Below are positions 26,563-43,095 of a stretch of 49,023 nucleotides of DNA, piece by piece (position 1 is the stretch's first letter; every line of letters begins with the position of its first letter). The notes beneath the pieces are model-generated. The model searched no databases, was not told the DNA's origin, and saw only the letters and a list, made by a program, of their open reading frames with translations. The stretch is from Cyanobacteria bacterium RYN_339. GTDB lineage: Bacteria > Cyanobacteriota > Sericytochromatia > S15B-MN24 > JAQBPE01. A program made the position numbers and the translations under genes. The DNA is taken from assembly GCA_028287685.1 (NCBI GenBank), contig JAQBPE010000264.1:1-49023 (forward strand), in the 5' to 3' direction.

Positions 26563-26955
26563 CTAGCTGCAGGCGTCCCGTACCGCGGCCACGATCGCGT
26601 CGGTGGGAGTCCCCGGCCCGAATACGGCGTTGACCCCAGCGGCCTGCAAGGCCGGGACATCCTCCGCGGGGATGATCCCGCCGCAGAACACCAGCACGTC
26701 GCCGGCCCCCTGTTCCTGGAGCTTGCGGCAGATCTCCGGCACCAGCGTCATGTGGGCGCCGGACAGCAAGCTCAGCCCGACGGCATCCACGTCCTCCTGG
26801 AGCGCGGCGGCGACGATGTCGTCCGGCTTCTGGTGGAGGCCGGTGTAGATGACCTCCATCCCGGCGTCTCGCAGAGCCCGCGCCACCACCTTGGCCCCGC
26901 GGTCATGTCCATCGAGGCCGGGCTTGCCGATCAAGACGCGAATTTTGCCTGCCAT
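26563..26955 (-). CDS. Stand-alone B12-binding subunit, methylmalonyl-CoA-mutase C-terminal type
   Basis: A 130-residue Rossmann-like cobalamin-binding domain as in the small subunit of methylmalonyl-CoA or isobutyryl-CoA mutase. It carries the DxHxxG signature ([12 protein letters not shown]), [10 protein letters not shown] and the nucleotide-tail loop FCGGIIP, all intact. The catalytic large subunit is not in this window, so the partner must be elsewhere. The start at 26955 ([13 protein letters not shown]) has GGAG upstream. A TACAAT -10-like hexamer lies at 26990-26995. Its 537-base upstream region is packed with CATG-centred hexamers, which suggests dedicated regulation, perhaps by the XRE protein at 27493. 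Confidence 0.92.
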
Positions 26956-26989
26956 TGCCTTGTTTCTCCTCGGTGGTGGGGGTGCAAAC

Positions 26990-26995
26990 ATTGTA
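26990..26995 (-). promoter_or_regulatory. Candidate -10 element of the B12-binding gene
   Basis: The minus strand reads TACAAT about 35 bases upstream of the ATG at 26955. No -35 is evident. It lies at the gene-proximal end of the CATG-hexamer array. Confidence 0.4.
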
Positions 26996-30251: not shown

Positions 30252-32171
30252 TTAGGGGCCGGGGCTCGGAGGGGTGCTCGTCGAGATCGCATCCACCCGA
30301 TCGGCCTGGTTGTCGTTCCGCGAGGTCATGATGACTTCCGCATTCAGGTCGCCGCCGCCGGCGATGTTCAGGTGCGGGGTCGTGAGGCGCGTCTTGTGGC
30401 CGGAGGTCGTCAGCTCGAACGAGTCGCTCAACGCGTAGTTCGTCACGACGTAGGTGAAGGTGCCGTCGTAGAAGACCTGGAAGTAGGCCACGGCAACCGA
30501 GCCGTTGACGAGGTAGCCCTTGAACTTGGACTGGGAGCCGCCGGAGGTAAACACCGTGCCGCCGAAGCCGTCGGGCAACTCGAGGTTCGGGAAGGCCGTG
30601 GGGGCACCCGGAACCGTCGAATTCGTCACGACCAGGCCGCCGCCTGCGATGGCCTTCGTAGCGTCCGTGCTGCCGCTGCCGAGAATGCCCGTGCCCGAGA
30701 AGGCGAAGACATCGCCCCTGAACCGGGCCACGATCTGCTTGATGTCGTCCTCGCCGGACGGCTGCGTCACGTCGATCGTCACCGTGCCGCTGTTCTCGTA
30801 GATGTTGACGTCCGGCTGGAAGTCGGTGCTGGTGAAGACCGGGTGGCCCAGCGTGGCGCCGACGGCGCTTGCCGCGTCGTCGTCCGACGCACCGGTGTTC
30901 TCGTCGGGCGGGATCGGGTCGCCCGGGTTGGGCGGGTTCGGGGTGTCGCCGGGGGTGGTGGAGTCGCCGGGGATGTCGATGACCTCGCCGCCGACGGAGA
31001 AGTCGCCACCGGCCGTCAGGCCGACGCCGATCGAGTCGAAGTCGCCGGGATCGAAGCCGCCGCCGGACAGCACGCCGCCGGCCGAAGCCGCCGCCGAGTA
31101 TTCCTGGGCCACGGTCTTGAAGTCGGCCTGGAAGTCATCCAGCACGCCGGCCTCTGCGAGCAAGGCCTGCATGTCGCCACCAGACAGGTCGCCATCGCCA
31201 GCGCACATCTTGTCTTCCAAGGCCGGGTTCTTGTCGAACGCCGCCTGGAGGTCGTCGCCCTTTTCGGCGGCCTTGTCCATGGCCTTGTCGATGGCTTCGG
31301 TCGGATCCTTCAGGTTGGAGTCCAGCGCCAACATCGCCGAGCAGGCGTCGTCCAGGGCGCTGGTGATGGGATCCATGTAGGCGTCCGAGGACGGCGCGTT
31401 GTCCAGCGCCGTGAGGTCGGAAGCGTTGAAATCGCCGGGGGCGTTCGGATCGTTGACGTTGGCGAAGCCGTCGTCGGTCTGCAGGTGGTGGTAAGGCGCG
31501 GCCTTCTTCTTGATGTTCTTGTCCAGCGTCTTGCCGGAGCCGGTGATCAAGCAGGTCACGGTCTTGCCGTTGGCCGTCGCGATGATGCGGGCGACCTTGC
31601 CGGGCGCCAGGCCCAGCACCGCCAGCTTGAACTGGCCGGCGCCGTCCGTCTGCACCAGGGCCGCGAGCTTGGGCGCGGCAGCGGCCTTGGGCTTGGGCGT
31701 GGCGAGGGCGGTCGTCGTCGGGGCCGCGGTGGTTGCTTGCGTGATGTGACGGTGGGCCCGGTAGTTGCCGGCGCCCTGGGCGACGATGTTGCCCGCGCCC
31801 TGGGCAACGATGTTGCCGGCGCCCTGGGCGATGATGTTGCCCCCGCCGGCGGCGACGATGCCCAGCGGCTTGCCGGTGATGGCATCTTCCACGCGCAACT
31901 GAGCATTGGCCATGGGGCCCTTGCTCAGCGTCGCCAGGCCCTTGAGCACGGTCGGCTTGGAATTGGCGACGGGGTTCGCCGGCGTCACCGTGGTGGTGTT
32001 GTTGCCGGACGGCGTGGTGGTGCTCGCCGCCGGGTTGGTACCAGCCGGGTTACCGGCGGGCGCGTTGGGGTTGAAAGAGGCTAATTGGCAGCCAGAAACC
32101 CCCACGGACAGCGCCACGGCGGTCGCAAGACCGATGGTGGCCCTGAGGGTCCGAATCCGCTTCACTGTCAT
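30252..32171 (-). CDS. Large lipoprotein with Gly-Asn octapeptide repeats
   Basis: A 639-residue protein with signal peptide and lipobox (VSGC, Cys28), then a Thr/Asn/Pro-rich spacer. Residues 75-103 (LKGLATLSKGPMANAQLRVEDAITGKPLG) resemble a carboxypeptidase-regulatory-like strand set. It is interrupted by four octapeptides (GGGNIIAQ, GAGNIVAQ twice, GAGNYRAH; residues 105-136), after which the domain seems to resume (LVQTDGAGQFKLAVLGLAPGKVARIIATANGK). An acidic helical region follows (230-380), then a Gly/Pro/Asp linker and a C-terminal beta domain with conserved Asn/Thr. The function is unknown. AGGAG lies upstream of the ATG. The repeat placed inside a beta domain parallels that of the lipoprotein at 8215. 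Confidence 0.83.
   Translation of the reverse strand: MTVKRIRTLRATIGLATAVALSVGVSGCQLASFNPNAPAGNPAGTNPAASTTTPSGNNTTTVTPANPVANSKPTVLKGLATLSKGPMANAQLRVEDAITGKPLGIVAAGGGNIIAQGAGNIVAQGAGNIVAQGAGNYRAHRHITQATTAAPTTTALATPKPKAAAAPKLAALVQTDGAGQFKLAVLGLAPGKVARIIATANGKTVTCLITGSGKTLDKNIKKKAAPYHHLQTDDGFANVNDPNAPGDFNASDLTALDNAPSSDAYMDPITSALDDACSAMLALDSNLKDPTEAIDKAMDKAAEKGDDLQAAFDKNPALEDKMCAGDGDLSGGDMQALLAEAGVLDDFQADFKTVAQEYSAAASAGGVLSGGGFDPGDFDSIGVGLTAGGDFSVGGEVIDIPGDSTTPGDTPNPPNPGDPIPPDENTGASDDDAASAVGATLGHPVFTSTDFQPDVNIYENSGTVTIDVTQPSGEDDIKQIVARFRGDVFAFSGTGILGSGSTDATKAIAGGGLVVTNSTVPGAPTAFPNLELPDGFGGTVFTSGGSQSKFKGYLVNGSVAVAYFQVFYDGTFTYVVTNYALSDSFELTTSGHKTRLTTPHLNIAGGGDLNAEVIMTSRNDNQADRVDAISTSTPPSPGP
31764..31859 (-). 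repeat. 24-bp tandem repeat coding for G-A-G-N-I-V-A-Q
   Basis: Four consecutive in-frame 24-bp units in the lipoprotein gene at 30252. The first three differ at a few positions, and the fourth (encoding GGGNIIAQ) is more diverged. It is coding, and the octapeptide periodicity suggests one strand or turn per unit. Confidence 0.85.
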
Positions 32172-32269: not shown

Positions 32270-32374
32270 TGAAGTTCGTCACACCCAAAAGATATACCCG
32301 CCTGCCTGGAGGCGATCACGGCGCGGCGCCATGAATGGTACGCGCCGGGCCGTAACGAGGGGATAACGGAGGGG

Positions 32375-33415
32375 TCACACGACGGCCGGTTCGCCTGCGG
32401 GTTGCTTGATCGGCAAGGTGATATTGAACGTCGTGCCCTTGTTCACCTCGCTCGTGACCACGATCTTGCCGTGATGGGCCTCGATGATGTCTTTCACGAT
32501 CGAGAGCCCGAGCCCCACGCCGCCGGTCACCCGGGAGCGCGCCTTGTCCACGCGGTAGAAGCGCTCGAAGATCCGGGGCAGATCGATCGGCGGGATCCCG
32601 ATCCCGGAGTCGATCACCTTGCAGAGCACGGTCCGGCCATCGTCGTTGGGGCTGACGTCCAGGGTCACGGCGCCGCTGGCGGGCGTGAACTTGATCGCGT
32701 TGTCCACCAGGTTGATCAACACCTGTTGGAGGCGATCGCGATCGGCCTCGATCGCGGGCATGTCTTCGGGGCACTTGATCACCAAGTTCACGTTGGCGAG
32801 CTTGGCGTGGTGTAGGAGGGTGCTCTCGACCTCGTCCGCCAGGCCCTGGAGCTCGAAGCGCGACATGTGCAGCACCGGGCGGCCCATCAGGTTGGCCACC
32901 GTCAACAGCTCGTTGACCAGGCGCGTCAGGCGATCGGCCTCGCCCTGGATGTTGTTCAGGAACTTCGCACGCATGCGGTCGTCCCGCATGGCGCCCATCT
33001 GCAACGACTCCGCGGCCATCCGGATGGCGGTCAACGGCGTGCGCAGCTCGTGGCTGACGTTCGCCACGAAGTCCTGCTGCATGCTGCCGAGCTTGTAGAT
33101 GTGGGTCCAGTCATGCACGGAGAGGATCGTCTGATTGCCTTCGCGCAGGGCCGTCACGGCCACCGTGCGCTCGGGCCACCACTCGGGCAGCAGCTCGACC
33201 GTCTGGCTCTCGCCCTTGGCCTTGGCTTCGGCGATCACGGCCTGGACTTGGGGCTCCGCCAACAGCTTCTCCAGCCGCTCGGCCCCGTCCTCGATCGGCA
33301 TGTCCGACAAGGACTGGATCGCGCCTCGGGTCTGGCCGACCACCTTGTTCGCGTCGTCCAGCACCACGATGCCGTCGTACAGCCGGGGCTTGAGGCTAAA
33401 CTCTTCTTTCGCCAT
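32375..33415 (-). CDS. Cytosolic histidine kinase, PhoR-like core
   Basis: A 346-residue sensor kinase. Residues 8-108 are PAS-like (YDGIVVLDDANKVVGQTRGA...TVAVTALREGNQTILSVHDWT). The HisKA domain has the phospho-acceptor H122 in FVANVSHELRTPLTAI. The HATPase domain has the N box (QVLINLVDNAIKFTP), G1 (IDSGIGIP), F box (RIFERFYRVD) and G2 (GVGLGLSIV), all intact. There is no membrane helix, so the signal is internal. No response regulator is encoded in the window, so its partner is elsewhere. It lies 16 bases after the M20-like gene on the same strand and is probably the last gene of that operon. GAAAGGA precedes the ATG. Confidence 0.93.
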   Translation of the reverse strand: MAKEEFSLKPRLYDGIVVLDDANKVVGQTRGAIQSLSDMPIEDGAERLEKLLAEPQVQAVIAEAKAKGESQTVELLPEWWPERTVAVTALREGNQTILSVHDWTHIYKLGSMQQDFVANVSHELRTPLTAIRMAAESLQMGAMRDDRMRAKFLNNIQGEADRLTRLVNELLTVANLMGRPVLHMSRFELQGLADEVESTLLHHAKLANVNLVIKCPEDMPAIEADRDRLQQVLINLVDNAIKFTPASGAVTLDVSPNDDGRTVLCKVIDSGIGIPPIDLPRIFERFYRVDKARSRVTGGVGLGLSIVKDIIEAHHGKIVVTSEVNKGTTFNITLPIKQPAGEPAVV

Positions 33416-33431
33416 GAGGTTCCTTTCGTGT

Positions 33432-34673
33432 TTAACCAGAGATCCCGTGGGAGATGGCGGCGTAGCCGCCGACCGCCTGCACGAGCTTGTCGATCGATAG
33501 CCGGTCGAAGGGGGTCTGGGCGAACTTCTCGTCGCCCGGTGCGTAACCGATCGTCGCGATCTTCTTGATCGCGGCCGTGTAGCCCCCATCGGTCGAGAAG
33601 TTCCACTTGCCCAGGCGGGGCTGTTGGCCGGTGCCCTCCAGGGCGGCGACCGCAGAGCGCACCAGGGCGTGGTTGCTCTCCGTGACGAAGGGGTGCATCA
33701 GCTTGGTCGCGGTCTGGTGCAAGCCCGTGTAAGACGTGACCGCAGCCTGGCGCACCCGCACCTCGCCCTTGAATTCCGGGTCGGCGGCCGTGAGCTGGTT
33801 GACGATCGATTGGACCTGCCAGACCACCGCATCCGGGGCCTCCGCCGGCAGGAAGCGCCGGTCTAGCGAGACAAGGCAGCGGTCGGGCACGCGGCTGCTG
33901 CCCGTGGGCGCGCTCTCGATGCCGGTGATCGCAATCGTGCTCTTGTCGAGGAAGGGGTGGCCCGGCAAGCTCGTGGCGAGTTGTTCCACGCCGGCGATCA
34001 CGCCCACCATCTTGGCCACGGCGTTGACCCCCAGCCAGGGCGCGCCGGCATGGCTGGTGCGACCGATCGTCAGCACCTCGAGCTCCAGGCGGCCGCGGTG
34101 GCCCAGGTGCACGTCCAGGTTGGTGGGGTTGCCCAATACCACCAGATCGTATTGCAGCCCGCGATCGGGCAGGCTCTTGTCCACCAGGTAGCGCATGCCC
34201 ACGTTGCCTTTGGCATGGGCCTGTACGACGCCGGCGAAGAGGTAGTCACCGCGCAGGGGCACGCCCAGCTTCTTCAGCAGCGCGCCGCCGTAAATCATGG
34301 CGGCAAGGGCGCCCTTGTGGTTGCTGGCGCCGCGGCCATGCAGGTAGCCTTCCGCCAACCGGCCCTCGTAGGGCCCGTATTGCCAGTCCGCTCGCTCGCC
34401 CGGATCCTGGTGGTCCAGGTGGCACGTGAACAACACGGAGGGCCCGGTGCCGTTGCCCTTGATCCGGCCGATGCAGTTGCCGAGATCGTCGACGCCCACT
34501 TCGTCATAGCCCAGGGAGCGCATCTTGTCCGTCAGGACGTTGACCAGCGCGCCTTCCTCGCCACAGAGGCTGGGGGTGCTGACGAGGCGCCGGGCCAACT
34601 CCACGATCTCGTCCCGCCAGGCCTCCGCTTGGGTGGCCAGCGTGCTGGGATCGAGCTGTTCCGTGGGGCTCAT
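33432..34673 (-). CDS. M20/YgeY-like metallohydrolase homologue lacking metal ligands
   Basis: A 413-residue protein with the overall sequence pattern of M20 peptidases, closest by eye to the YgeY group. The first motif keeps H85 and D87 (CHLDH), but the bridging Asp of GRGxxDxKG is N118 (GRGASNHKG), the base/ligand pair EE is A152-H153 (QAHA), the Glu of the EP motif is N182 (GNPT), and the C-terminal His is Q386 (FAQTPFD). Four of the five conserved metal/catalytic motifs are lost, yet the frame and the rest of the fold are intact, so this looks like a conserved non-catalytic binding protein. Starts at 34679 and 34673 are possible, and GGAAGG fits 34673. A TATAGT -10 lies at 34702-34707. 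Confidence 0.88.
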   Translation of the reverse strand: MSPTEQLDPSTLATQAEAWRDEIVELARRLVSTPSLCGEEGALVNVLTDKMRSLGYDEVGVDDLGNCIGRIKGNGTGPSVLFTCHLDHQDPGERADWQYGPYEGRLAEGYLHGRGASNHKGALAAMIYGGALLKKLGVPLRGDYLFAGVVQAHAKGNVGMRYLVDKSLPDRGLQYDLVVLGNPTNLDVHLGHRGRLELEVLTIGRTSHAGAPWLGVNAVAKMVGVIAGVEQLATSLPGHPFLDKSTIAITGIESAPTGSSRVPDRCLVSLDRRFLPAEAPDAVVWQVQSIVNQLTAADPEFKGEVRVRQAAVTSYTGLHQTATKLMHPFVTESNHALVRSAVAALEGTGQQPRLGKWNFSTDGGYTAAIKKIATIGYAPGDEKFAQTPFDRLSIDKLVQAVGGYAAISHGISG

Positions 34674-34701
34674 CGGCATCCTTCCAGAAGGTGGATGCAC
34701 C

Positions 34702-34707
34702 ACTATA
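34702..34707 (-). promoter_or_regulatory. Possible internal -10 before the M20-like gene
   Basis: The minus strand reads GGGTATAGTGG about 30 bases before the ATG at 34673, which could give the M20-like and histidine kinase genes an extra promoter. No -35 is evident. Confidence 0.35.
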
Positions 34708-34754
34708 CCCTATGGGCGCCCCGTTCAGGTGCGTGGCGCCACTAGCCGCAGGCG

Positions 34755-35585
34755 CTAGCTCTTGGGTTTTTGGCGGCCGAGCTTGCCGCGCACGGTGTCC
34801 CAGAAGCCGGCTTCCGGGATGGGGCCGGTGGCCTTGGCGGTGGAGGGAAGCTCCGTGGTGTTCTTGCCGGGCTCCGTGCCGGCGGGAGCCGTTTGCTTGT
34901 TGGGGCTGCGTGGGGGGAAGAGCTTGCCCAGCAGCGGGTCGCCGCGGAAAGTCACGTTGAAGTTGGTCACGATGTAGTACTTGCCGCGCACCTTGGGCAG
35001 CGGCAACGCTTCCAGGAACACGGTCGAGGCGGGTGGTTCCAGCTCGCCGGCGCGTTTCAGGCGCTCGCGCAATGCGTCGAGCGCCCGCGTGGCGTCGCTG
35101 TATTGGAAGCAGGCTACTTGCATCTGGCGCGCCAGGCGCGGGTTGGATGCGGCGCGGCCAAGCAACGCGCGGATCAACGGTTGGACGTCAGGCGGCAAGC
35201 CGGCCAGGCGCTCCTCGGCCTCGTGGCGGGTGCGCGCGAACAGGTCCATCGCCAGGCGGATGGCGTTGATCTTGGTCTCCACGGGTTGGCAGATGCGCTC
35301 GCCCACCTTCAAGACCTCTTCGGCCTGGCCTTCCAGCAGCACCCAGGCGCGGATGGCGGCGTCGCTAGGCCCCGACGGTGGTTCCATGTCATCAGGTGTC
35401 ACCAGGGGGGCCGTTGCGTCCGGCGAACCGGTGCGTGGGACCTCCAACTCCTGGAAGCGCACGAAACGGTCCGTGTGCCCGTCAGGCGCTAGCCGCCCGA
35501 TCATGGGCGTGCGCCGGGTGCCGGGGTCTGGCAGCTCCGTCGTTTGCTCCGGTGCAGGTTTCTCGGCTTCTGGCTCGTCCGTCAC
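34755..35585 (-). CDS. Unrecognised 276-aa protein coupled to the HisC-like gene
   Basis: A soluble protein with a Glu/Pro-rich N-terminal 70 residues, a helical core (AIRAWVLLEGQAEEVLKVGERICQPVETKINAIRLAMDLFARTRHEAEERLAGLPPDVQPLIRALLGRAA and on to about 200), a short beta segment (GKYYIVTNFNVTF) and a Pro/Thr-rich, basic tail. No family is recognised. The start is a GTG (35585) two bases after the stop of the HisC-like gene, with GGCAGGTAGG upstream, implying coupled translation. Its place between a pseudo-aminotransferase and a pseudo-M20 protein suggests a role in the same signalling block. Confidence 0.75.
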   Translation of the reverse strand: MTDEPEAEKPAPEQTTELPDPGTRRTPMIGRLAPDGHTDRFVRFQELEVPRTGSPDATAPLVTPDDMEPPSGPSDAAIRAWVLLEGQAEEVLKVGERICQPVETKINAIRLAMDLFARTRHEAEERLAGLPPDVQPLIRALLGRAASNPRLARQMQVACFQYSDATRALDALRERLKRAGELEPPASTVFLEALPLPKVRGKYYIVTNFNVTFRGDPLLGKLFPPRSPNKQTAPAGTEPGKNTTELPSTAKATGPIPEAGFWDTVRGKLGRQKPKS

Positions 35586-35587
35586 GC

Positions 35588-36673
35588 CTACCTGCCCGAG
35601 GTTTTGAAACCCACGGCCGGGGGGTCGGCCCCGAACAGGGCGGTCATCGCATCCACGAAGATGGCGTTCATGGCCGGCGTGCCCACCGTGACGCGCACGC
35701 AATTCATCAAGGGGGACCGGTCGAAGGCCTGCACGGCCACGCCCTTGTCCAGCAGACGCTCGGCCAGGTCGCGCCCATCCAGGGTGGTGCCGACCAGCAG
35801 GAAGTTCGCGGCGCTGGGCCACGTCACCACCCCCTGTACGGCAGACAACGCTTGCCGGAGGGTTTCCCGCTCGCGGACCAAGTCCGCACGGGATGGCGGC
35901 CAATCGTCGCTGGAGAGCAGCACCTGCGCCGCCAGCAGCGCCGTGCCGCCCACGTTATGCGGCAGCCGGATCTTCTCGATTTCGGCCGTCACGCGTGGGT
36001 GGGCCAGCAGGTAGCCGACGCGGAAGGCGGCCGCGTGGGAGAAGGCGCGCAGCACCGCCAGGTTCTCGACCTCCGGGATCGCGTCGGCCAGGGAGACGCC
36101 GCTGTATTCGATATGGGTTTCGTCCACGACCACCAGGGCGCCGGTGTCGCGGGCTATTGCCAGGATCTCGTCGCGCGCGAAGAGGTTGCCCGTCGGGTTG
36201 TTGGGGTTGCCGACCAGGACCACGCTGGCTTCCTGGTTGTTGGCCGTGGCCACGACCTGCTCGACCGGCAGCGTGAAGTCGGCTTTCAGCAGCACCGCCA
36301 CATGCTTGATGCCCAGGGTTTGCGCCAGGCGGCCGTAGGTCGGGTTGGTGGGCACGGGGTAGACCAGCGTGCCGCGCAAGCACCAGGCCGTGAGCACGTT
36401 GCGCAGCATGTCGTCGGCGCCCGCGCCCAGGCTGACCCAGTCCGGCTCCAGGCCCAGGGGTTCGGCGATCGCCCGCTGTAAATCAAGATGGCCGGGCGGG
36501 TGGCGGTTCCAATCGACGGCCAGAAAGGCGTCCGCCCAGCGGCGCTTCAGCGCGTCCGGCCAATCCAGGGGCGACTCGTCCTCGTCCAGCTTGGCTACCA
36601 CCGTAGGCGTAGCCTCCCGCCCCACGGGCAGGTTCAGCAGATCCAGGCGTTGCAGCTTGTCGAGCTTGCTCAC
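35588..36673 (-). CDS. HisC-like class II aminotransferase homologue without PLP lysine
   Basis: A 361-residue fold-type I protein closest by eye to histidinol-phosphate aminotransferase. It keeps VGNPNNPTG (154-162), VVVDETHIEY with D184, FRVGY with R218 and the C-terminal arginine in NCVRVTVGT. The lysine that binds PLP, normally in FSKxxxLAGLRxGY, is missing: the motif reads AFSHAAAFRVGY, with His213 at the Lys position and three residues deleted. The DEAY tyrosine is also His187. Transamination is thus unlikely. The start is GTG, overlapping the stop of the giant kinase gene as GTGA (36670-36673), so the two are translationally coupled. Confidence 0.87.
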   Translation of the reverse strand: MSKLDKLQRLDLLNLPVGREATPTVVAKLDEDESPLDWPDALKRRWADAFLAVDWNRHPPGHLDLQRAIAEPLGLEPDWVSLGAGADDMLRNVLTAWCLRGTLVYPVPTNPTYGRLAQTLGIKHVAVLLKADFTLPVEQVVATANNQEASVVLVGNPNNPTGNLFARDEILAIARDTGALVVVDETHIEYSGVSLADAIPEVENLAVLRAFSHAAAFRVGYLLAHPRVTAEIEKIRLPHNVGGTALLAAQVLLSSDDWPPSRADLVRERETLRQALSAVQGVVTWPSAANFLLVGTTLDGRDLAERLLDKGVAVQAFDRSPLMNCVRVTVGTPAMNAIFVDAMTALFGADPPAVGFKTSGR

Positions 36674-39600
36674 GCTTTGGGGCTGGCCTCTTCGCCGGAG
36701 AGCTCTTCGCTCCAGGCCACGACCCGGTCGCGGCCCGTCGCCTTGCCATGGTACAGCGCGGCGTCGGCGCGGCCGAGGATGGCGGCGGCGTCCTTGTCGC
36801 CCGCGGCCAGGCCGGAGACGCCCAGGGTGGCGGTCACGCCGCGGATGGGGCGGCCTTCCACGTCCACCACCTCGATGCTTGCCAGCGCCTTGCGGAAGCG
36901 CTCGGCCAGGATCATCGCGCCCGGCGCGTCCGTGTCCGGGCACAGCACCACGAACTCCTCCCCGCCGTAGCGGGCGGGCAGGTCACAGGTGCGCGCGGCC
37001 TTGGCGAGCGCGTCGGCCACGGCCACCAGCACCCGGTCGCCCACGGCGTGGCCGTAGGTGTCGTTGATGCGCTTGAAGTGGTCCACGTCCACCAGCAAGA
37101 GCGACATCGCGCGCTTGTAGCGGCGGGAGATGTCCAGCTCGCGCGCGGCCTGGTCCAGGAAGAACCGTCGATTGCGCAAGCCGGTCAGGGCGTCCGTGCT
37201 GGCCTCGTAGTCGGCCTTGCGGTACATCTCCAGCGCCCGCTCCAGCTCCGCCGCGCGTTGGTTGAGCGTGGAGTAGAGCGTGGCGTTCTCGATGGCGACG
37301 CTGGCGTGGCTGGCGATCGCCTTCAAGAGGTCCAGGTCCTTGTCCGAGAAGGTGGTGACGACCGCCTGCGAGTCCACGTACAACACGCCCAGGCTCTTGC
37401 CCTTGGCTTGCAGGGGCACGCACATCAGGGTGCGCAGGTTGAGCGCCATGATCGACTTGCTGCTCTGGAACTCCTCGTTGGTGGTGGCGTCCATGATCGC
37501 CAGCGCCTGCCCGGTAGCCAGCACCTTCTGGCTGACGGACATGGAGCTGCGCTCGTGGGCGATCGCCCGCCCGAACTGGTTGAAGGCCGCGCGGCAGATC
37601 AGCTTGTCCGGCTCTTCTTCGTCGCGCAGCAGCACGAAGCCGCGCTCCGCCTTGGTGATTTCGAGCGTCAGGCGCACCACCTGGTCCAGCACCGCGTCGA
37701 TCTGCAACGTTTCGTTGATCTGGCGCGCCAGGTCGTTGAGCATCTCCAGCTGTTGGCTCTTGGCCGTCCACTCCTTGAACAGCACGCCGTATTGGCCGGC
37801 CACGTTCTGGAGATCGAGGCTCACGCGTTGCAGGCGCTCCAGCGTCAGCTGGCTGGCCTCCGGCGAGGCCAGCGGGCTCTCCGTGGTGATGCCCGGGATC
37901 TTCTCCATCACGCGTTGGAGGTCGGGCTGGGCCAGGAAGCGCGCGCGGGCCTCCGGTTCCAGCTCGTCGCCCAGGCCCCTCAGGGTCTTCTGGGCGTCGA
38001 GCAGCATGGTCGAGGCGCCTTCGCCGGCCGTCACCTGGCTCAGGCCGAAGAGCGCGAGCGCGCGGAACTGGGGCTCGCCGGCTTGCTCGGCCAGCGTCAG
38101 GGCCGCCTGGTAGAAGCCCGTGGCCTCCGGGTAGCCGCCGGCGGCGGCCAACTCGCCCTGGACCAGGGCCGTGCGGCAAGATAGCAGGTCGGCGCCGATC
38201 ACCGAGCAGACGCCGGCGGCCTGGTCGGCCGCCTTGCGGGCCTCGTCCGGTTGGTCCTTGCGCAGCAGCATGGCCTTGGCGAACAGGCCACGCGCAAGCG
38301 AGCCCTTGGCATCGGCGTCGATCGCGGCCTGGATCGCGCGGTCCGCGAAGTCGCGGGCCACGTCGGATTGGCCCATGCGGCTGTGGATCTCGGCGAGGTA
38401 GGTGGAGAGGCGCACATGGGCGCCGGTGTCGTCCATCGAGCGCAGCATGAACAGGCCCTCCTGGGCCGCGTTCAGCGCTTCCTGGATCTCGCCCAGCAGC
38501 AGCCAGCCCTCCACCACGAAGGGCAGCACGATCGAGTAGACGTAGTTGCTGGTTTCGCGCGCCAGCTGCTCCGCCGCGCGCAGCTGCTCCACGCCCTTGG
38601 CGTAGTCGCCGCGGTGCAGCAGCACCAGCGCCAGCACGGCCCCGCCGATCGGCAGCGCCTGCTTGTGGTCCAGCTCCTTGGCGAGGGTCGCGCACTGGCC
38701 GGCCAGGTCCAGGGCGCGCCAGAGGTTGCCCAGCTCCAGCGCCACGATCGACTGGTTGAGCACGCCGATCACGTAGTCGTCCTGGATGCCCAGCTCCTTG
38801 GCGAGGGCGGTGTTCCGGCGCGCGGACTCCTGGGCGTCCTTGAGCTTGCCGGCCTGCAACTGGACCTCGAACAGCAAGTTGTAGCTGTACTCCACGCCGC
38901 CCTTGTCGCCGATGCGCTCCTGGAGCTCGATCGCCTCCGTGATGTGGCCGAAGCCTTGTTCGCGGGTGGAGCCGCCAGCGGCCACCTCGAGGTAGCCCAG
39001 GAAGCACAGGCTGCTGGCGTACCAACTGGTCAGATCGGCGGCCTTGGCGCGTTCCGCCGCAACGGAGAAGACCTCGCGGGCGCGGGTGAAGCTGCCCTGG
39101 AAGAACAGGCAACGGCCCATGTTCACGCGGGCGCGGGCGGCGGTGCGGGCGTTGCCCAGCTCGTCGGCCAGCTCGATCGCGCGCTCGAAGCCCTTGATGG
39201 CCTCCGAGATACGCGCGCCGGTGCCAGACAGCGACCCGTTCTTGGCCTGGGTCACGACCATCTCCAGCAGCCGGGCCTTGTCGCCCAGCTTCTCCGCCAG
39301 CGGGATGCCCGCGCTCAGGTACTGGTTGGCCTTCTCGAGGTCGTAGCGCCAGTGGGCCACGGTGGCGAGCAGGTTGAGGTAGTCGCAGCGCGTCTCCTCC
39401 CAGACCTCGGCCACCTTGCGGCCGTCGACCAGCGCCAGGCCGGCCGTCAAGAGGTCTTGGGCCAGGTCCAGCGCGAAGATGTCGAGGTTCTTGCCACCGG
39501 CGTCCAGGGCGTAGCGGATGGCGCGCCCTGCCAGGTCGCTGGCGCCGTCGGGGCTCGCGGCCAGGAAGTGGCGGGCCAGCAGCGTAAGGTCGCCCAAGGA

Positions 39601-41505
39601 CGTACCTTGCTCGCCCATGCGCGTCTCCAGCTGGACGGCCAGCTCGCGGTGCAGGCGCAGGCGCGTCTCTACCGGGATGCGGTCGTAGACGGCCGCGCGC
39701 AGGGCGGCGTCGCCGAACATGTAGCCACGCTCGCCGGCTTCCAGCACCCGGGCCTGGGCGGCCTCGTCGAGCGCGTCGAACAGCGTGTCGTCTTCCATGC
39801 CCAGGATCGCGGACGCCATGGCCACGCCGATGGGCTGGCCGTTCACGGCCGCCAGCTCGCAGACGCGCAGGGCCTCCGGCGAGAGGCTGGCCAGGCGGTC
39901 CAGCAGCAGATCCTGGATGTCACCCGGCAGGTCCTCGGGGGCGATCGCCTCCGGCAGCTGCCAGCGGCCGCGGCTGCGGCCCAGCGAGCCCACGCGTTGC
40001 AAGTGCTCCAGGAGGTTGCCGATCAGCTGGGGGTTGCCTCCCGTCAGCTCGTGGGCCTGGGCCACCAGCCCGGCGGGCAAGTCGTCCACGCCCAGCATGG
40101 AGCGGATCATCTCGCCCGTGGCCATGGCATCGAGTGGCAGCAACGGCAGGCCAGGCACCTTGGCGGTGCGGGCGGCGCAGACGATCAGCAGCGGCTTGTC
40201 GGCGGCGTTGCGGGCCAGGTAGTTCAGCGTCTCCACGGACAGGGCGTCGGCCTGGTCCCAGTTGTCCAGCGCCACCACGCCACCCTTGGCAGCCGTGGCC
40301 TGCAGGATCAGGTGGGTGAAGGCGGCCTGCAGGGCGGTCTTCTCTTCCTTCGGCTCCATGCTGGGGGCCGGCCGGCCGTCCGCCAGCTCGGGCATCAGCT
40401 TGGAAAGCAGCGGGGTGTGTTCGAGCAGCACTTGCGGGCAGGCTTCGCGCGCTAGCGGCAACAGGCCGCGCAGGATGTCGAGGAAGGCGCCGTAAGGGGC
40501 CGGGTCATCGGCACAGGTGCCCTGCAGGAAGGGCAGCTCCTCCAGCTGGACGGCAAAGCGGAACTCCGTCAGCAGGCGGCTCTTGCCGGCGCCCGCGGGG
40601 CCCGTGACCCAGACCGTCTGGCCCTGGCCCTTGTCCACCGCGTTCAAGGCGTCGATCAGCTTGGCGAGCTCGCCGCCGCGGCCCACGAAGGCACTGGCCA
40701 GCAGGCTCGCGCCCATGCCTTCGTCGACTTCCAGCCCCAGGGCGGCCAGCATGTCGTAGGCGCTGGCGTAGCGGGAGGCAGGCTCCTTGGCCAGCAGCTT
40801 CAGCACCACGCGCTCGAAAAGCGGCGAGACGTCGGGCGTCAGCTCGCGCAGGGGGCGCGGCGGCTGCGACAAGTGAGCGCGCAAGACCTCGACCGGGTTG
40901 CTGCCCTCGAAGGGCGGCCGGCCGGTCAGCAAGTGGTACGTGACGGCGCCCAGGCCATACAGGTCGGCGCGCTGGTCCAGGCGGTCGAGCTTGACCATCT
41001 CCGGCGCCAGGTAGGCGATCGTGCCCTTGATGGCGGTGGGCGTCTGGCCGGCCAGCTCGATCAGGCCGAAGTCCATCAGCTTGACCGTGCCGTCCGGCTT
41101 GATGCGGATGTTCTCGGGCTTCACGTCGCAGTGGACAAAGCCCTGCTGGTGGATGTAGCCCAGCGCCAGGCCCAGCTGCCGCAAGATCGAGGGCAGCTCC
41201 GCCTGCGAGACGGGCCGCTCGTCCAGGCCCGTGCCCGGCACGACCTCCATCGTGTAGTAGGGCGTGCCGTCGGGCAACCGACCGTAGTCGAAGACCTCGC
41301 AGGTGTTGGGGTGCCGGAGCTTCGCCATCGTGCGGAACTCTTGCTTGAACCCCAGGAAGGTGGCCTCGTCCATGCCGGCTTGCCCGGCCAGGGCCTTCAG
41401 GGCCACCTGCCGGCCACGCGTGGCGTCCTCCACCAGCCAGACCGACCCCATGCCGCCTTCGCCGAGCTTTTCCAGGACCTTGTAACGGTTGCCTGCGTCG
41501 ATCAT
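36670..41505 (-). CDS. Giant Ser/Thr kinase - ATPase - TPR - GAF - diguanylate cyclase
   Basis: A 1611-residue cytosolic signalling protein. Residues 8-255 are a PknB-like kinase: GEGGMGSV, K37 in VALK, HCDVKPEN with D127 (HRD is HCD here), DFG 145-147 and APE. A STAND/AAA-type ATPase follows, with Walker A GPAGAGKS (302-309) and a Walker B-like VVALDNWDQ. Then comes a long TPR-like helical region (about 680-1140), a GAF domain (about 1220-1390) and a C-terminal GGDEF domain. GGEEF begins at 1514 and is preceded by an RxxD inhibitory site (RTCD, 1505-1508), so c-di-GMP synthesis with feedback is expected. No clear ribosome site precedes the ATG. TATATA at 41547-41552 between TACCCCT direct repeats may be the promoter. 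Confidence 0.93.
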   Translation of the reverse strand: MIDAGNRYKVLEKLGEGGMGSVWLVEDATRGRQVALKALAGQAGMDEATFLGFKQEFRTMAKLRHPNTCEVFDYGRLPDGTPYYTMEVVPGTGLDERPVSQAELPSILRQLGLALGYIHQQGFVHCDVKPENIRIKPDGTVKLMDFGLIELAGQTPTAIKGTIAYLAPEMVKLDRLDQRADLYGLGAVTYHLLTGRPPFEGSNPVEVLRAHLSQPPRPLRELTPDVSPLFERVVLKLLAKEPASRYASAYDMLAALGLEVDEGMGASLLASAFVGRGGELAKLIDALNAVDKGQGQTVWVTGPAGAGKSRLLTEFRFAVQLEELPFLQGTCADDPAPYGAFLDILRGLLPLAREACPQVLLEHTPLLSKLMPELADGRPAPSMEPKEEKTALQAAFTHLILQATAAKGGVVALDNWDQADALSVETLNYLARNAADKPLLIVCAARTAKVPGLPLLPLDAMATGEMIRSMLGVDDLPAGLVAQAHELTGGNPQLIGNLLEHLQRVGSLGRSRGRWQLPEAIAPEDLPGDIQDLLLDRLASLSPEALRVCELAAVNGQPIGVAMASAILGMEDDTLFDALDEAAQARVLEAGERGYMFGDAALRAAVYDRIPVETRLRLHRELAVQLETRMGEQGTSLGDLTLLARHFLAASPDGASDLAGRAIRYALDAGGKNLDIFALDLAQDLLTAGLALVDGRKVAEVWEETRCDYLNLLATVAHWRYDLEKANQYLSAGIPLAEKLGDKARLLEMVVTQAKNGSLSGTGARISEAIKGFERAIELADELGNARTAARARVNMGRCLFFQGSFTRAREVFSVAAERAKAADLTSWYASSLCFLGYLEVAAGGSTREQGFGHITEAIELQERIGDKGGVEYSYNLLFEVQLQAGKLKDAQESARRNTALAKELGIQDDYVIGVLNQSIVALELGNLWRALDLAGQCATLAKELDHKQALPIGGAVLALVLLHRGDYAKGVEQLRAAEQLARETSNYVYSIVLPFVVEGWLLLGEIQEALNAAQEGLFMLRSMDDTGAHVRLSTYLAEIHSRMGQSDVARDFADRAIQAAIDADAKGSLARGLFAKAMLLRKDQPDEARKAADQAAGVCSVIGADLLSCRTALVQGELAAAGGYPEATGFYQAALTLAEQAGEPQFRALALFGLSQVTAGEGASTMLLDAQKTLRGLGDELEPEARARFLAQPDLQRVMEKIPGITTESPLASPEASQLTLERLQRVSLDLQNVAGQYGVLFKEWTAKSQQLEMLNDLARQINETLQIDAVLDQVVRLTLEITKAERGFVLLRDEEEPDKLICRAAFNQFGRAIAHERSSMSVSQKVLATGQALAIMDATTNEEFQSSKSIMALNLRTLMCVPLQAKGKSLGVLYVDSQAVVTTFSDKDLDLLKAIASHASVAIENATLYSTLNQRAAELERALEMYRKADYEASTDALTGLRNRRFFLDQAARELDISRRYKRAMSLLLVDVDHFKRINDTYGHAVGDRVLVAVADALAKAARTCDLPARYGGEEFVVLCPDTDAPGAMILAERFRKALASIEVVDVEGRPIRGVTATLGVSGLAAGDKDAAAILGRADAALYHGKATGRDRVVAWSEELSGEEASPKA

Positions 41506-41565
41506 TCGGAATGGGTCACTTTCGAGGGTAAGACGGGTCGTACCCCTATATACCCCTGGCGCGGC

Positions 41566-43095
41566 TTAAGCCTTATTGCTGACCGGCTCCCAGTTGCTAA
41601 GCAATTCAACCACCATGCGGACGGGCACCCCGGTCGGGCCCTTCGGACGGTAAGGCTTCTCGCGCTCCGTCCAGGCGGTGCCCGCGATGTCCAGGTGGAC
41701 CCAGGGCGTGTTGTCCGTGAAACGGTTCAGGAAGCAGGCCGCGGTGATGGTGCCGGCTTCGCGGCCGCCGATGTTCTTCATATCGGCGATATCGGACTTC
41801 AGCAGCTCGTTGTACTCCTTCCAGAGCGGGAGCTGCCAGCCGCGATCGCCGGTCTTCTCGCCGCAGGCCAGGATCCGGTCGACCAGTGGCTGGTTGTTGC
41901 CCAACACGCCAATCGCCTCCATGCCCAGCGCGATCACGCAGGCGCCGGTCAGCGTGGCCATGTCGATGATGGCCTGGGCCTTGAGGTCCTTCACGGCGTA
42001 CGCGATCGCGTCCATCAGCACCAGGCGGCCCTCGGCGTCGGTGTTCAGCACCTCGACGGTCTGGCCGTTGTAGCTCGTGAGGATGTCGCCCGGCTTGATG
42101 GCGGTGCCGCTCGGCATGTTGTCCGTGGCCGGCACCAGGCCGACGACGTTGCGCTTCACGCCCAGCTTGGCGATCGCCCGCATGATCCCGATCGTGGCCG
42201 CGCCGCCCGCCATGTCGTACTTCATCTTCTCCATGCCTTCGCCCGGCTTGATGGAGATGCCGCCGGTGTCGAAGGTGATGCCCTTGCCGATCACGGCGAT
42301 CGGCGCCTCGCCCTTCTCGCCGCCGTTGTGGGTCATGATGATGAACTTGGGCGGCTCGACGGAGCCCTGGTTGACGCCCAGCACGCCGCCCATGCCCAGC
42401 TTCTCCATGTCGGCCTTCTCGAGGATCGTGACCTCGAGGCCCACTTCCTTGCCGATGCGCACGGCCTCTTCCGCCATGCGCGTGGCCGTGACGACGTTGC
42501 TCGGGTGCATGACCAGGTTGCGGGTCTCCGTGATCGACTCCGCCAGCACGCGGGCCACGCCCACGGCGCTTTCCAGCTGGGCCTTGGCGCCGGCGTCCTC
42601 CGTCACGAAGGTCACGCTCTCGACGGCCTTGAGCTCGTCGCGCTCCTTGGTGCGGTAGTCATGCATCGACCAGAGCGACAGCAGCGCGCCCTCCGCGACG
42701 GCCTGCGCCAGGGCGGGCCAATCCTTGCCCAGGTCGGTCTTGGCGTGCGACGGACCGGGGATCAGCACCGCGACGTCCTTCACGCCCAGGTCACGCAGGC
42801 TGGACGTGCCCTTGCCGCCGCCGTTGCGCATCTTGTCCAGGCTGAGGTCCGCGGCCTTGCCCAGGCCCACGAGCGCAAAGCGCTTGATCGCCTTGTCCGG
42901 CGTGTGCAGCACCAGCACCTGGTTGGCCTTGCCCTTGAAGTCGCCCGAGGCCAGCACCTTGGCGATCAGGCCGCCGGAAATCTCGTCCGCTTCCGCCTTG
43001 GGACCCGCCAGCTCCATGTCGCCTTCCAGGAAGCCCAGCGCGAGCGCCTCGGTCTTGAGATCGGCCAGCTTGCCTGCGGTGACTTGAACGTTCAT
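41566..43095 (-). CDS. pepA: Leucyl aminopeptidase, M17 family
   Basis: A 509-residue cytosolic aminopeptidase. The catalytic half has both signatures intact: VIGKGITFDTGGISIKP (metal-binding Lys and Asp) and NTDAEGRLVLMDA, plus KYDMAGGAA. The N-terminal 170 residues are the regulatory/DNA-binding-like macro fold of this family. Length is the usual 480-510. The start at 43095 (MNVQV) has GAGGA upstream. It lies on the same strand as, and 41 bases after, the hydrolase/ArsA pair. Confidence 0.95.
   Translation of the reverse strand: MNVQVTAGKLADLKTEALALGFLEGDMELAGPKAEADEISGGLIAKVLASGDFKGKANQVLVLHTPDKAIKRFALVGLGKAADLSLDKMRNGGGKGTSSLRDLGVKDVAVLIPGPSHAKTDLGKDWPALAQAVAEGALLSLWSMHDYRTKERDELKAVESVTFVTEDAGAKAQLESAVGVARVLAESITETRNLVMHPSNVVTATRMAEEAVRIGKEVGLEVTILEKADMEKLGMGGVLGVNQGSVEPPKFIIMTHNGGEKGEAPIAVIGKGITFDTGGISIKPGEGMEKMKYDMAGGAATIGIMRAIAKLGVKRNVVGLVPATDNMPSGTAIKPGDILTSYNGQTVEVLNTDAEGRLVLMDAIAYAVKDLKAQAIIDMATLTGACVIALGMEAIGVLGNNQPLVDRILACGEKTGDRGWQLPLWKEYNELLKSDIADMKNIGGREAGTITAACFLNRFTDNTPWVHLDIAGTAWTEREKPYRPKGPTGVPVRMVVELLSNWEPVSNKA

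Follow-up and report, generated by a model that had tools for sequence, protein, structure and literature searches.

Do five consecutive minus-strand genes that place two protein kinases beside two relatives of metabolic enzymes make up one signalling circuit, or more than one? The window, that is, the whole stretch of 49,023 nucleotides analysed here, is contig C294 of a draft genome (7.0 Mb, 95% complete, 6.7% contamination) of a non-photosynthetic relative of cyanobacteria. An earlier note on this DNA had proposed a single metabolite-sensing circuit, in which two catalytically dead enzymes (HISC and M20) serve as receptors beside a giant kinase-cyclase (KIN) and a histidine kinase (HK).

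Layout and conservation of the block

All five open reading frames were recovered with the sizes and spacings that the earlier note had given (Table 1). The GTG start of HISC overlaps the KIN stop as GTGA, gaps of 2, 81 and 16 bases separate HISC from UNK, UNK from M20 and M20 from HK, and the leucyl aminopeptidase gene LAP (41566-43095) sits 60 bases upstream of KIN. Pfam gives the domains that had been assigned to KIN (Pkinase, AAA_16, TPR, GAF and GGDEF) and no convincing match for the 276-aa protein that had been called unknown. Both pseudoenzymes were recognized correctly, since the PLP lysine of HISC is replaced and M20 keeps one of six catalytic-centre residues. Two further genes were observed in the window: one (30252-32171) encodes a lipoprotein-like product of 639 aa that carries AGNIVAQGAGN repeats and matches no Pfam family, and the other a B12-binding-domain protein (26563-26991), 78% identical in a sister genus and downstream of the block there too.

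Table 1. Positions in the window of the block's genes and of candidate transcription signals
Feature	Position	Strand	Basis
KIN: Ser/Thr kinase-AAA_16-TPR-GAF-GGDEF protein, 1611 aa	36670-41505	-	Pfam
HISC: pseudoenzyme of 361 aa resembling histidinol-phosphate aminotransferase, with His213 in place of the PLP lysine	35588-36673	-	Aminotran_1_2
UNK: order-specific family member, 276 aa	34755-35585	-	no Pfam/NCBIfam family
M20: YgeY-like M20 pseudoenzyme, 413 aa	33432-34673	-	Pfam Peptidase_M20, M20_dimer
HK: cytosolic HisKA/HATPase_c histidine kinase, PnpS/PhoR-like, 346 aa	32375-33415	-	Pfam, NCBIfam
GGGTATAGT, probable extended -10 before M20	34702-34710	-	position agrees with relatives' TGNTANNNT sites
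GGGTATA before KIN, possible promoter element	41549-41555	-	also before KIN in G001
Terminator-like stem-loop downstream of HK	32298-32315	-	terminator scan

The block was compared among 18 genomes of the class: the window genome (G000), the sister genus (G001), eight further genomes of the order (G002-G009, with G008 and G009 86% and 64% complete) and eight from other orders (G010-G017). Ten genomes represent the order, one of them UBA8530. In G001 the order LAP-KIN-HISC-M20-HK recurs, with identities to the window of 61, 36, 43, 48 and 75%, respectively, and UNK is missing. This shared order, together with the agreement of the two HISC genes at codon positions 1, 2 and 3 (0.56, 0.63 and 0.40), which fits selection on the protein, indicates a block beyond chance. 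KIN and HISC precede M20-HK only in the window and G001; in G002-G009, M20 is followed by HK in all eight genomes, without KIN or HISC, and the pair adjoins in 10/10 order genomes. Rather than one ancient circuit of five genes, the block has the M20-HK pair as its core. The neighbourhood conservation that the earlier note had named as a check holds for this pair throughout the order and for KIN-HISC-M20-HK in the sister genus. Its single circuit is contradicted by the M20-HK loci of the other eight order genomes, which contain neither KIN nor HISC, and by the G001 block, which lacks UNK. That note had named scattering or independent promoters as evidence against itself; such evidence was found as regards KIN, but M20-HK gave none.

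The transcription signals point in a similar direction. An extended -10 site, TGNTANNNT, lies upstream of M20 in 8/8 relatives (background 0.017 per 120 nt), at distances that are rough because the M20 start codon is not fixed in five of them; in the window, GGGTATAGT lies 37 nt upstream of M20 and fits the relaxed pattern only (background 0.046). Because of these sites in the relatives and the similar one in the window, M20-HK is probably a transcription unit of its own, and KIN-HISC-UNK is probably a separate one. The window has three copies of GGGTATA, all in gaps of the block, a count reached in 2 of 100 shuffles; in G001 it stands before KIN, behind a strong LAP terminator. Since this terminator, read by eye, separates LAP from KIN, LAP was ruled out as the first gene of the operon. 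The stem-loop after HK is the only minus-strand terminator-like site between 32100 and 43400, with none inside the block, and the overall number of terminator-like sites, 9, is close to the shuffled mean of 6.2. A general sigma-70 scan gave nothing useful.

The M20 protein and the histidine kinase

The window M20 has H85, N118, A152, H153, N182 and Q386 where active relatives align H, D, E, E, E/D and H. The G001 copy keeps none of the six residues, and the UBA8530 copy keeps all six. In the wider alignment, the first Glu of the EE pair is the catalytic base and is the residue lost in most M20s of the class. This base is absent in 9/10 HK-linked copies, UBA8530 being the exception; in G003 and G006 it alone is missing, the metal ligands H, D, E, D and H being kept. 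The catalytic Glu is gone from 10 of the 12 class orthologs, and one more (G015) lacks four other residues. Outside the class, 66 of 72 M20 relatives carry the full H-D-E-E-E/D-H set; of the six exceptions, L146 is gapped, L161, L164 and L171 have Q for the second Glu, L162 has G and L175 is poorly aligned. Two genomes from other orders, G010 and G015, carry degenerate copies without an HK beside them, and catalytic loss therefore occurs also without linkage; the G010 gene (L099:515-2975) overlaps an open reading frame that, by eye, resembles threonine synthase. The minimum number of losses on the tree is two. In this quick tree the HK-linked copies do not form one clade, and a one-clade topology (p-AU 0.222) is neither rejected nor shown.

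The M20 fold with its dimerisation domain is found both by Pfam and in a confident structure model, with a mean pLDDT of 95 and DapE (7uoi) as the top PDB match (TM 0.81/0.87); the alignment behind the model contains many active relatives. The protein shares this fold and the profile family (313.5 of 321 bits) with the YgeY-type M20 hydrolases (NF009555, TIGR03526), but unlike them it has lost the base and the majority of the metal ligands, and its gene is linked to that of a histidine kinase. The E. coli protein YgeY has been called an uncharacterized M20 peptidase, found near purine genes (PMC4016543).

HK has the HisKA and HATPase_c domains of PnpS/PhoR kinases (Pfam), and its match to the PnpS/PhoR models begins in the N-terminus, at residue 12; the best NCBIfam matches, PnpS (297.3 of a cut-off of 400) and phoR_proteo (252.7 of 334.2), both stay below cut-off. 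The earlier note's cytosolic kinase agrees with these domains and with the lack of any hydrophobic span in the window protein (maximum 19-residue Kyte-Doolittle value 1.03) and the G001 protein, but the PAS domain that it had assigned did not appear in the Pfam search. An HK ortholog is present in 18/18 class genomes. In all eight genomes of the other orders (G010-G017), it follows the gene of a 230-aa OmpR/PhoB-type regulator, whose best profile matches are YycF and PhoB. At E<=1e-80, 16/18 class genomes each yield a single regulator match (C31:22358-23044 in G000), and the incomplete G008 and G009 yield none; in the eight order genomes that have it, no HK match was found in its 1.5-kb flanks, and in the window HK has no adjacent response regulator. 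Because HK accompanies the regulator in the outer orders and the regulator stands alone in the window's order, the regulator-kinase operon is, judged from gene order, split in this order, with HK placed behind the M20 gene. Compared with the PnpS/PhoR-PhoB systems (NF046044, TIGR02966, TIGR02154), to which both HK and the ancestral regulator are most similar, HK differs in being soluble, without the membrane-spanning sensor, below the family cut-offs, apart from its regulator and linked to M20. In none of the 72 relatives outside the class does an HK lie in the 200 bases that follow M20. A gene that we take to be rplT lies near M20-HK in 7/8 of G002-G009, the G009 contig ending before it. In four of these eight genomes the genes after HK belong to one family, with FUR in both members tested by Pfam, and in G006 (L102:12298-13109) a STAS protein and an anti-sigma-type ATPase lie after HK.

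KIN, HISC and UNK

The PLP-binding lysine of HisC is replaced in HISC by His213, with a three-residue deletion: HISC reads AFSHA and then, across the deletion, AAFRVGY, versus TFSKAFxLAxxRVGY in others. The lysine is present in 27/27 other loci read and in L016. HISC lacks it, and so does the ortholog in G001, the one close relative of HISC; in this ortholog the GNGSDE motif is gone as well, together with the Tyr and the neighbouring Arg. HISC belongs to the fold family of HisC (TIGR01141) and retains the C-terminal Arg motif, but it lacks both the PLP lysine and the Tyr and scores 207.3 bits against a cut-off of 276.55. In a quick tree with long branches, HISC and its ortholog form one clade (100), sister to cyanobacterial HisC (92). 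No HisC above cut-off was found in G000 or G001, and IGPD (hisB) is absent in 17/18 class genomes, including the window genome, and found only in G007. Judged on the IGPD and HisC genes, histidine synthesis has apparently been lost and HISC kept. Between the two genera, M20 (48% identity) and HISC (45%) change much faster than HK (74%), as relaxed proteins would.

KIN joins kinase, TPR and GGDEF in one chain. Its kinase domain carries HCD...DFG and its cyclase GGEEF with an upstream RxxD, as read off the sequence. Against the TOMM kinase/cyclase model TIGR03903, KIN scores 151.7, with a cut-off of 705.75. The KIN family has 50 matched stretches in G000 (for example, C258:5373-10193 and C125:9978-13565) and 24 in G001 at E<=1e-40, a big expansion of kinase-ATPase-TPR giants. 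A Clostridium thermocellum protein of 1826 aa, described in 2005, combines a Ser/Thr kinase, TPR and GGDEF in one chain (PMC1262709); KIN additionally has AAA_16 and GAF. Cyanobacterial proteins of the HstK type combine kinase, GAF and HisKA (PMC2176072); KIN shares the kinase and GAF but has GGDEF in place of the C-terminal HisKA.

UNK was ruled out as a member of a known family, there being no match in Pfam or NCBIfam (nor, by Pfam, for one paralog), and its single-sequence structure model is poor (pLDDT 45). Its own family gives 54 matches at E<=1, in 10/10 order genomes and 0/10 others, with 20 in G000. We examined each of the 20 places in G000 and 21 of the 34 in other genomes; the UNK-family gene abuts a KIN-type kinase gene (no more than about 110 bases apart, or with an overlap of at most 160) in 9/20 and 2/21, respectively, and ten of these eleven pairs are divergent. 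No KIN-type kinase occurs in 45 control loci (255,720 bases), a weak control with one locus from the kinase-richest genome, G000. In the window one gene, HISC, separates UNK from KIN. At L185, L188, L189, L191, L201, L202, L205 and L207, UNK-family genes diverge from kinase genes with starts 24-92 bases apart, and several family members have TRPL-like stretches near the N-terminus.

Weighing the explanations

We tentatively prefer, with a little less than even confidence, two adjoining signalling units, in which the M20 pseudoenzyme would be a ligand-binding partner that sets HK activity toward an unlinked regulator. In the M20-HK unit, a soluble PnpS/PhoR-like kinase whose ancestral partner is an OmpR/PhoB-type response regulator left the regulator operon and landed, in the window's order, behind the gene of an M20-family amidohydrolase. 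This protein retained its fold and lost catalysis, and would most likely bind a small cytosolic ligand of an amide or amino-acid-like kind and contact HK; we think that it is a cytosolic receptor or regulator of HK. Against this reading count the fast change of M20 and HISC relative to HK, the degenerate M20 copies without HK in G010 and G015, the scatter of the HK-linked M20s in the quick tree, and the intact M20 beside HK in UBA8530. The KIN-HISC-UNK unit would combine a Ser/Thr kinase-diguanylate cyclase, a HisC-derived pseudoenzyme and a member of a kinase-accompanying family, with HISC and UNK probably being ligand-binding or substrate partners of KIN. A version in which the M20 amidohydrolase was recruited as the receptor subunit of HK, catalysis was lost at least twice afterwards, and the HISC relic plays the same role for KIN seems rather doubtful. 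It is also rather unlikely that the linkage is transcriptional only, with M20 sharing a promoter and having a non-signalling task such as altered amide chemistry, storage or a chaperone-like function. The full catalytic centre of UBA8530 beside the same HK shows that catalysis is compatible with linkage and that the pair could be mere co-regulation, and the G003 and G006 copies, lacking only the base, fit this too; however, the pair has been kept in every order genome while the base has gone in nine of ten.

The integrated five-gene circuit, with input from both pseudoenzymes to the TPR kinase as well as to HK, we consider improbable. The identical order of KIN, HISC, M20 and HK in G001 and a block interior free of minus-strand terminator-like sites agree with it, but it is at odds with the eight order genomes in which the pair stands without KIN and HISC, the loss of UNK from G001, and the promoter-like site before M20 in 9/9 genomes (in the window by the relaxed pattern only). 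More improbable still is that HISC and M20 are decaying, functionless relics carried by their neighbours: despite the many active-site changes and the long G001 branches (2.09 for HISC and 1.3 for M20), both have full-length open frames in both genera with divergence concentrated at codon position 3, and M20 is present in all ten order genomes.

Among the papers searched, none joins pseudoenzyme, histidine kinase and M20, or M20 peptidase, histidine kinase and operon. A kinase gene beside a dead M20 suggests that an old enzyme may have turned into a sensor part. The change from enzyme to sensor has mostly been inferred from end products, and in this case a single order appears to display the steps: the regulator-kinase operon of the outgroups, then HK beside M20 proteins that are intact (UBA8530), deprived of the base alone, or wholly dead. 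This graded series beside one conserved kinase is what would be most useful for work at the bench.
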